NCBI RefSeq assembly: GCF_910592395.1
Contig: NC_088316.1
Location: forward strand, 7,564,001 to 7,628,000
Direction: 5' to 3'
Source of the DNA: Lineus longissimus
Taxonomy: Eukaryota; Nemertea; Pilidiophora; Heteronemertea; Lineidae
Length of the DNA stretch: 64,000 nt
The position numbers and the translations under genes were made by a program. Shown piece by piece: positions 14,985 to 50,588 of the stretch (its first letter is position 1; each line of letters opens with the position of its first letter). The notes beneath the pieces were generated by a model. It made no database searches and had not been told where the DNA came from. It was given only the letters and a program-made list of their open reading frames with translations.

Positions 14985-15097
14985 TATGGCGCTCCAAAGC
15001 GATCATATCTCTATAATAACGACATGACGATATTATTTACGACATGTCGATATTATCAATTACGACATGTCGTTATTAATTTCGTCATGTCGTTATT
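14985..15097 (+). repeat. Left terminal inverted repeat
   Basis: About 113 bp, roughly 90 percent identical to the reverse complement of 50478-50588. The inner part consists of CGACATGTCG-type palindromes joined by TTATTAAT-type spacers. This motif continues unpaired to about 15220. Confidence 0.88.
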
Positions 15098-15235
15098 ATT
15101 ATTTCCGACATGACAATATTAATAACGTCGTTATTAATATTGTCATGTCGTTATTAATGTCGTTATTAATATTGTCATGTCGGGTATTTTGAGCGTTATT
15201 TTCGACATGACGATATTACAAGCGCTCGAAAGCGA
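15098..15235 (+). repeat. Subterminal palindrome cluster
   Basis: Further copies of the CGACATGTCG/GTCATGTCG motif separated by about 18 bp, in both orientations. Such subterminal arrays often bind transposases; that role is inferred. Confidence 0.6.
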
Positions 15236-15301
15236 TCACAATTATATTAGCTAGTCCCGCCCACCAATTACTCTGGCCAATTGAAATCCTCCTTACAAAT
15301 T

Positions 15302-15360
15302 GATTGGCTGCTGCTCGTCAATCCACGCCATTGTTTGAAGATTCTGTATCTATATAGTCA
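15302..15360 (+). promoter_or_regulatory. Candidate promoter of the HECT ligase-like gene
   Basis: An inverted CCAAT motif (GATTGGCTG, 15302) and a TATA-like CTATATAG (about 15350) lie upstream of the ATG at 15424. A CCGCCCA box is at about 15257. Function is inferred from position only. Confidence 0.4.
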
Positions 15361-15423
15361 CGTGTAGGGGATTGCGATCACATCTCATTTTTCTTTGAGG
15401 AAGAAAGGAGGAAAGCGTTTGAT

Positions 15424-15565
15424 ATGGATATGCCTCTGGATTTAACTGTTGATAATGGGCGCATGCCTTTGGCTTTGCCGACCGCTGCACCTCCCCAAGA
15501 ACCAGCACTTGTGTCGCTCTCACAGCCACGACCAGCAGTGTCACAGCCGCACCCGGTTCCAATTG
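15424..15565 (+). CDS. HECT-like gene exon 1 (start codon, Pro-rich)
   Basis: ATG at 15424 opens MDMPLDLTVDNGRMPLALP and continues proline-rich to GTGAGC at 15566. The exon ends in phase 1, and exon 2 (after the acceptor at 19746-19747) completes a Gly codon to give PVPIGQYSRLRASVNG. The exon lies only about 440 bp inside the left element end, as expected for a gene belonging to the transposon. Confidence 0.7.
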
Positions 15566-48600: not shown

Positions 48601-50314
48601 AAATCACTGTGGCAATCATTCTGGGTTCATGATGGGCAATTTTGAGAAAAAACATAATTAACAAATTATCATTTCCGTTTTCCATAAGTGTGCGACAACT
48701 TGCAATCTAAATTGTATACCGGTACATTCAAGAACTTAATTTAACAAGACTAAAGCATGGCTAAATCAAGACAAGACTAAATCAAGAAATTTGACCTCTG
48801 TGACCTTGAAAAGTAGGTCAAATCAAAAACCCAGAGGATATGAATAGATATGTTGTACATTACCACTAGATATTCCATTACAAATGTATTTATGCACACA
48901 GATAATAGTCCGAGTTTGTTTTTCTTTGTATGGTATATGTCCGGTGATTGAAGAAAAACACGAAATGGTACTTTCTGACATGAAGCGCTGCCACCTTTAG
49001 GGGTGTCAGTTCAGTTCACAGGAAAATTAATAGGCTAGTTCACCGAAGTGACGACCAGATGGCACTGGCACTGATGTCGACCTCTGTCACCATTATGTTT
49101 TACCCCCATTTGATGCAAGAAATCCTTACTAAATTCGAGCAAAGTTTGTGTGTTTGTTTGTTCGCTCATATCTCCCGGACCGAGCGACCCCAGATTTTGC
49201 ATGTAGCATTTAACGGGTCCCGAAAGTGTCCTAACGAAGCCCGATTTTTGATTTTCCGACTAATAAACGCTATAACAACGTCTCCAAACTTTTAGCAAGA
49301 ACTGTCATCTAGGCCAAGGCCCTATCTCATGGTCTATAGACACTAGTGACCAGGGCCCAGTTGCTCAATCAGCGTAAAGTTTAACGCCAACGTAAGTGCT
49401 AACGCTGGCCTTAAAATCTCACTAATTGGAGAGTTGGTATCAGCTACAATGGTATCAAATTCAAGATTACTGTAACTGGAAACAAATCTTCCAAATCGAT
49501 GATACTCAACTGTTTCATAGAGATTTTAAAGCCAGCGTTAGCGCTAACATTGGCGTTAACTCTCACACCGCAGCGGTCTCGAGCTTTCAGAGCCGTAGAA
49601 AATCATCTTGTGCAATCTGGATACTCGGATCAGCCACTCGTGCGGTTTTCTTATTATATAGAGCCTTTTCCCCCCCCCCCCCCAAGACCAAAAAGCTAGA
49701 GCTCTAGGCCTACGCCCCTGACATGCATAGGCCTACATCATTTTGACCTGTACATCATGGAGGTATTATAATACCTCTATGCATACGTGATGTAACAAAT
49801 ATATTTGAGCCGGAAAAAAGAGACAATGATTTTGAAACACCCCTTAGGCCCACCTGCTGGTATTAGATGGATCGACACCGGCTTCTCCACGTGCACCTCC
49901 GACCGCGGCACCACCATTATCACCAGTATCAGCATCGGTGTCGTCATCAGCAACGTCATCCTGCTGAGCATCAGCCTCACGGTTGTTCGATTCAGCTTGC
50001 CGTTCACCCATATTCTGCACTTCAGTCAGCACGCTATCCAAAAGAGGCAACAAGTCCAAAATCTCACGATGGTCGTGTCCAACACGCAAAACATTAACTC
50101 TCAATGCGGTCATCCTCCGAACGGCTGCTGCTCTGATGTCCGTTTGAAAAATATCCATTGTTGTAAGTGATCTCTGCACATCTTCTACTTGAGTTCTAAA
50201 CGAACGCACAAACGTGGCAATATTCAGACGATTTTCTGGTGGCGGGCATGCAACAACGGTGAGAAAAGTAACAAGATACAAACAGAAAAAATAACGGTCA
50301 CAGTAACAGTACAC
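45612..50314 (-). CDS. IS3-like DDE integrase/transposase, four coding exons, apparently intact
   Basis: Minus-strand exons: about 50314-49854, 48372-48199, 47715-47425 and 46422-45612. Every junction is GT..AG in phase 2 and restores Arg, and no stop interrupts about 570 codons. The N-terminal part is helical with an acidic Asp-rich linker. Exon 2 holds a helix-turn-helix (QLEYLFHANFPAPRIASIMQ, then VSVATIRRRLR). Exon 3 ends with the first catalytic Asp (GPNSLWHIDGNHKLIR). Exon 4 has the second (GVPSRVRADRGGENNLVEEF) and the Glu ([20 protein letters not shown]). The product should cut and join the element ends in the nucleus. The start is uncertain: no ATG opens the first exon in frame, the first in-frame ATG being near 50157, so an upstream exon may exist. 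This protein family is common as multi-copy 'integrase core' genes in fish and invertebrates. Confidence 0.85.
46422..47425 (-). other. Transposase intron 3
   Basis: The intron runs between donor CAG|GTAATGG (exon end 47425) and acceptor TTCCATTTCAG|GTGG (exon start 46422). It holds no recognised gene or repeat. Confidence 0.7.
48373..49853 (-). other. Transposase intron 1 with repeat insertions
   Basis: Donor CCAGCAG|GTGGGC at 49854 and acceptor CTCTTTTCAG at 48373. Inside are GACCTTGAAAAGTAGGTCAA (about 48798; related blocks near 62595 and 62898) and a MITE at about 49375-49564. Confidence 0.65.
49375..49564. mobile_element. 0.2 kb MITE in transposase intron 1
   Basis: TAACGCCAACGTAAGTGCTA and GCTGGCCTTAAAATCT on the left return inverted as AGATTTTAAAGCCAGC and GTTAGCGCTAACATTGGCGT on the right, giving TIRs of about 42 bp. 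Confidence 0.75.
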
Positions 50315-50394
50315 TTCGACTCCATGTCATGGCAGTATATGCTTCACCAGTATGCATGAACATGTGCATGAACGAGCGATCGGCATAAGCTTGA

Positions 50395-50460
50395 ATGAAA
50401 GAACGTCGATGATTGGTTCATTATAGCTCCGCCCAGTAGGCGTTCCGAATTAAGCAAAAA
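50395..50460 (-). promoter_or_regulatory. Candidate transposase promoter
   Basis: Read on the minus strand, a GGGCGGAG box, a TATAATG stretch and a CCAAT motif (AACCAATCATC) precede the first coding exon. The left end of the element has similar CCGCCC and CCAAT motifs. Inferred from position only. Confidence 0.35.
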
Positions 50461-50477
50461 CAGGCCGGATTGCGGTA

Positions 50478-50588
50478 GAATATCGACATGACGAAATTAA
50501 TAACGACATGTCGTAATTAATAACGACAGTACGTAAATAATACCGTCATGTCGTTATTATAGACATATGATCGCTTTGGAGCGCCATA
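50478..50588 (-). repeat. Right terminal inverted repeat
   Basis: Inverted match of 14985-15097, ending CGCTTTGGAGCGCCATA. It includes four CGACATGTCG-type motifs. Confidence 0.88.

Follow-up and report, generated by a model that had tools for sequence, protein, structure and literature searches.

Evidence for a 35.6-kb IS3EU-type DNA transposon pairing a transposase with a HECT-like gene in the nemertean Lineus longissimus

Introduction

Can 35.6 kb of DNA containing two multi-exon genes have entered a genome as a single cut-and-paste transposon? This question is raised by a locus of Lineus longissimus in which a first-pass annotation of a 64-kb stretch of DNA (hereafter, the window) had noted matching ends embedded in a LINE. 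Our analyses of the window and of the genome (391 Mb, 30 contigs searched) support, as the best reading, that positions 14985-50588 constitute a single DNA transposon of the IS3EU type. The coordinates of its features are collected in Table 1.

Table 1. Features of the IS3EU-type element and of its surroundings (positions in the window)
Feature	Positions	Strand	Remarks
Left LINE flank	14155-14984	+	reverse transcriptase, stopping in the DYSKAFD region; one frame change near 14803
Left target-site duplication	14979-14984		TTGTTA
Left terminal inverted repeat	14985-15097	+	begins TATGGCGCTCCAAAGCG
Left array	15014-15218		about seven partly palindromic CGACATGTCGTTATTA-like units
HECT ubiquitin-ligase-like gene	15424-34388	+	about 14 predicted exons, approximate borders
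HECT-like exons 1-5	15424-15565, 19748-19871, 21520-21782, ~23336-23404, ~24694-24762	+	predicted
HECT-like exons 6-9	~24907-25020, ~26365-26431, 26712-26839, 26974-~27138	+	predicted
HECT-like exons 10-14	31767-~32010, ~32263-32442, 32882-33039, 33560-33795, ~34137-34388	+	predicted
In-frame TAG	31903-31905	+	in predicted HECT N-lobe exon
Tyr codon	34278-34280	+	at HECT catalytic Cys position
Nested dispersed repeat	41114-43907		partial copies: window 8975-9772; C7:12675519-12678984
IS3EU-type transposase gene	45612-50158	-	exons 50158-49854, 48372-48199, 47715-47425, 46422-45612
Right array	50478-50559		about four CGACATGTCGTTATTA-like units
Right terminal inverted repeat	50479-50588	-
Right target-site duplication	50589-50594		TTGTTA
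Right LINE flank	50590-51048	+	LINE protein, later region; no FADD-type motif

Results

Ends of the element and its insertion site

The inverted repeats of about 112 bp that the first-pass annotation had proposed are present at both ends, with 105 of 114 alignment columns identical and termini reading TATGGCG...CGCCATA, and the hexamer said to flank them is a perfect (6/6) duplication on the left and right outer sides, an identity expected by chance in 1 of 4096 cases. Allowing up to three mismatches, the terminal 17-mer TATGGCGCTCCAAAGCG has no occurrence in the 64-kb window other than at the two ends of the element. Both ends also carry arrays of CGACATGTCGTTATTA-like units, with one 3-mismatch match in the rest of the 64 kb; arrays of this kind often serve as transposase-binding sites, and these may do so as well.

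The claim that the surrounding LINE is split exactly at this point was not confirmed: both flanks are LINE sequence, on the same strand and in the right order, but they do not join without a gap. The left flank matched LINE-1 ORF2p chains in the PDB (E about 5e-10), with an alignment ending at residue 611-612. The LINE piece between the flanks is missing, presumably amounting to several hundred bases if the usual LINE layout applies; either the target LINE already carried a deletion or a later deletion took place beside the right end. When the joined 24-base pattern of an empty site was searched for throughout the genome with up to three mismatches, the one match was the window's own right junction. 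Elsewhere in the window, positions 5868-7064 (+) encode a Pao retrotransposon peptidase (Peptidase_A17, E 4.5e-44), by its look part of a broken BEL/Pao-type retrotransposon, while the ORF at 58187-59431 (+), with weak matches to a Tc5-type DNA-binding domain (E 0.0089) and to DDE_1 (E 0.04), both below cut-off, is possibly another, unrelated DNA transposon.

Two genes starting near opposite ends

The element had been described as containing two multi-exon genes that start near opposite ends, a description borne out at the level of predicted gene models. At the right end, the four exons of the transposase gene are separated by GT..AG introns of 1481, 483 and 1002 bases and, spliced in phase, give a 526-aa model with an open frame free of stops. 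This model matched PF24764 (rva_4 integrase core), which we take to be the IS3EU transposase profile, with an E-value of 2.6e-83, and its match to PF00665 (E 0.002) fell below the cut-off of that profile. Judged by motif position, D250, D307 and E342 would form the catalytic triad. A scan of viral contigs with the transposase as query found no relative.

At the left end, exon borders of the HECT-like gene were placed by eye and with simple splice scores, and are therefore transcript-free predictions. The C-terminal part of the assembled model matched PF00632 (HECT) with an E-value of 1.1e-5 and 25.7 bits (cut-off 23.9) over profile positions 108-300 of 306, which places a HECT domain in the assembled model; taken singly, the window's HECT exons gave no Pfam match, and hence the assignment rests on the assembled model. 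In the PDB search, the predicted protein retrieved weak AREL1 matches alone (E 0.03 and 0.065), in an alignment that spans both sides of the in-frame TAG, with a gap of three residues shortly before it. Of the 28 HECT loci linked to a transposase and described below, 20 were searched for their C-lobe exons: three yielded no pick and 17 were translated, two of them in a clearly wrong frame, leaving 15 readable C-lobes, several of which are near-identical copies of each other. All 15 keep the catalytic Cys of the C-lobe; the window copy has Tyr at this position, in a gene whose frame is interrupted by the TAG. Because of the TAG and of this Tyr, the window gene is probably a HECT-derived pseudogene and not a working ligase; an unseen splice may run round the TAG. 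Within the same gene, a 94-bp stretch with a Pro/Gln-rich predicted exon is duplicated with 97% identity (23328-23421 / 24686-24779).

Relation to known elements

The identification as an IS3-like (IS3EU) DNA transposon is sustained by the matching ends, the 6-bp duplication and the rva_4-type transposase. The IS3EU / GingerRoot superfamily is characterized in the text of PMC10045372 by TA..TA termini, a usual 6-bp target-site duplication and a DDE transposase, and the window element has all three, the last of them through its PF24764 match. It differs in its length of 35.6 kb, its kilobase introns and its HECT second gene, and the words HECT and ubiquitin are absent from the main text of that paper. 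Fungal IS3EU elements, as presented in the text of PMC12730594, resemble the window element in their TAYGG..CCRTA ends, inverted repeats longer than 30 bp, 6-bp duplications and second gene in opposite orientation; their second gene, however, is an alpha-kinase, with TET/JBP placed between it and the transposase, whereas that of the window element is HECT-like. Neither alpha-kinase nor TET/JBP domains were detected in six-frame Pfam scans of 15285-45283.

Those scans, in which stops were read as Gly and matches accepted at E up to 0.01, returned no domain at all, an absence that constitutes weak evidence since they also missed the single HECT exons, and other multi-exon genes could escape in the same way. 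Rfam at gathering thresholds gave no match. Polintons/Mavericks are large DNA elements with genes for a protein-primed polymerase, capsid and protease. They share with the window element their large size and, as stated in PMC10045372, a 6-bp duplication, but we rejected this assignment because no polymerase, capsid or protease match appeared in the scanned interval and the transposase is of the rva_4 type.

The main text of a paper on giant transposons (PMC6431247) contains no word beginning with IS3, and among the open-licence PMC papers listed by our searches none treated a HECT gene within IS3EU; two that contain both IS3EU and ubiquitin bear titles on unrelated subjects. Within this literature, a HECT-bearing form of the known IS3EU superfamily would thus be new.

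Recurrence of the two-gene arrangement

Across the genome there are at least 150 rva_4 (PF24764) matches, those scored out of 214 candidates, and 98 HECT matches from 113 scored candidates. When matches on one strand lying no more than 8 kb apart are merged, they correspond to at least 121 rva_4 loci, a lower bound, and to 54 HECT loci, among which the window gene does not figure since its exons lie under the threshold. Among the matches listed, 28 of the 54 HECT loci have an rva_4 locus no farther than 30 kb away, where 1.0 would be expected at random (binomial 4e-34), and their orientation is strongly biased: 25 are convergent, or tail-to-tail, two lie on the same strand and one is divergent (binomial 1e-12). 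The 25 tail-to-tail loci face 24 distinct rva_4 loci. On C4, one transposase is shared by two HECT loci; owing to this sharing and to several near-identical pairs, the 28 linked loci do not represent 28 independent families. One exception to the tail-to-tail order is a HECT locus whose sequence closely resembles that of the window and which lies on the same strand as its nearest rva_4 locus (C15:493373 / C15:498028).

Two complete compact relatives were recovered. One, at C17:1909463-1919050 (9,588 bp), has TATGGCAAGCCA...TGGCTTGCCATA ends and the perfect duplication GCTGAG; the other, at C1:19659963-19669479 (9,517 bp), is flanked by the perfect duplication AATGCC, its ends having been predicted from the geometry of the first and then found at 19659963 and 19669479. 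In both, TATGGC..GCCATA ends enclose rva_4 and HECT matches tail-to-tail. With 25 HECT loci and two complete elements showing it, the two-gene plan is an architecture that the genome contains repeatedly. The first-pass annotation had anticipated that its reading would fall if, genome-wide, the two ends were confined to isolated short MITEs that never enclose this pair of genes. Judged by gene type, this is not the case: 25 HECT loci lie tail-to-tail with a transposase, and the two compact insertions frame the pair, the terminal repeats of their compact family being different in sequence from those of the window element.

Short elements occur as well. The 17-mer pattern of the inverted repeat had 153 genome-wide matches with up to two mismatches, vs 16 in a backward control. 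From the matches listed we chose 20 inverted pairs of shorter span that end in TATGGC..GCCATA, whose flanks carry a perfect 6-bp duplication in 17 cases, a 5/6 match in one, a 5-bp duplication in one and none in another. Eighteen start with TATGGCACGCC, unlike the window element, and two with TATGGCGCTCC. The elements at C5:16548544-16549032 and C9:11283319-11283807, each 489 bp long, have TATGGCGCTCC ends flanked by a perfect 6-bp duplication and are apparently non-autonomous relatives.

Size of the element and its close copies

Compared with compact relatives of 9.5-9.6 kb, the giant size of the window element is an oddity, explained mostly by lengthy introns and spacer DNA, to which one or more nested repeats add. 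The close copies seen are fragments of the left end. That on C7 corresponds to 14985-17730, including HECT exon 1 and adjoining a matching left end, with 92% identity over the first 1.1 kb and 97.7% over 16079-17730, within predicted intron 1, whereas that on C6 covers the first ~450 bp (90.5%). Since the intron-1 DNA is common to the window and C7, part of the length is old, a family trait. Another part may be new, since a 412-base tandem duplication in the window (15668-16082 / 16079-16494) is single in the C7 copy, and a further part derives from nested insertion, given that the dispersed repeat of Table 1 is also found outside the element. In the C7 left-end copy, the initial 25 bases are present as two tandem units (C7:12646083-12646132).

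Among relatives that have a convergent transposase, the one nearest by HECT sequence lies on C9, and 13 kb separate its two genes; its transposase shares 67% identity with that of the window over exon 3 and 50% over exon 2, and no convincing right inverted repeat was recognized in the 6 kb where it was sought. Relatives of the right end lie at C5:18214463-18215113 (76%) and C15:6978751-6979162 (82%). Wider searches of stretches of C6, C7, C8, C11, C15 and C19 revealed no paired ends with matching flanks, and no second complete copy of the giant family was seen in these searches.

Discussion

Taken together, the data lead us to conclude with high confidence that 14985-50588 is one giant IS3EU cut-and-paste insertion, in which the HECT-like gene is a resident second gene. 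The transposase encoded on the minus strand from the right end would recognise the inverted repeats and the short units near them, cut out the entire element and insert it at a staggered break, from which the 6-bp duplication would result. While the ends, the duplication and the open model are read from the DNA itself, binding and catalysis are ascribed by analogy with the family. The HECT-like gene starting from the left end would be a second resident, and not a chance capture, since HECT genes recur tail-to-tail with this type of transposase across the genome. We infer that its protein might ubiquitylate a host or element protein, favouring transposition or escape from silencing.

We give very little credence to the alternative that each end stems from its own insertion, both of one family and both into copies of a LINE, with ordinary genome filling the 35.6 kb between them. 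Flanks that are not contiguous, the frequent presence of related ends in short elements and the lack of a second complete giant copy among those seen would all suit such a history, but it sits poorly with the identical outer six bases, with an interior whose transposase and HECT gene follow the order of 25 other HECT loci and of two complete compact elements, and with the recurrence on C7 of the left-end DNA, HECT exon 1 included, joined to a matching end. It is also unlikely that the transposon picked up the HECT gene by chance, as cargo from the host. The broken state of the window copy beside an open transposase frame could be taken in that sense; more than half of the HECT loci, though, lie near rva_4 transposases, in convergent order in 25 cases and with visibly different sequences, and the readable C-lobes of relatives, some of them near-identical copies, consistently retain the catalytic Cys.

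A different matter is whether the element had its present length when it moved. That a much smaller transposon was inserted, and grew afterwards to 35.6 kb by nested insertions and internal duplications, is a doubtful yet reasonable proposal: the compact relatives, the nested dispersed repeat and both internal duplications, one of them single in C7, point that way, whereas the intron-1 DNA shared with C7 up to 17730 and the equally wide gene spacing on C9 indicate that some of the length predates the insertion.

Beyond the single large insertion that we favour for this locus, our opinion is evenly divided on a broader proposal, namely that an entire IS3EU branch, probably of animals, has as its core second gene a HECT ligase, kept across many families to act against host silencing or to tune the transposase, and that this branch includes giant, intron-rich elements of more than 35 kb still moving by cut-and-paste. 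If this were general, a large group of DNA transposons would carry its own ubiquitin ligase beside the transposase, much as fungal IS3EU elements carry TET/JBP and kinase genes, and 28 of the 54 HECT loci detected here, roughly half, would be linked to transposons and not be host genes. Likewise, a length of 35.6 kb would have to be considered for simple cut-and-paste elements with two genes.
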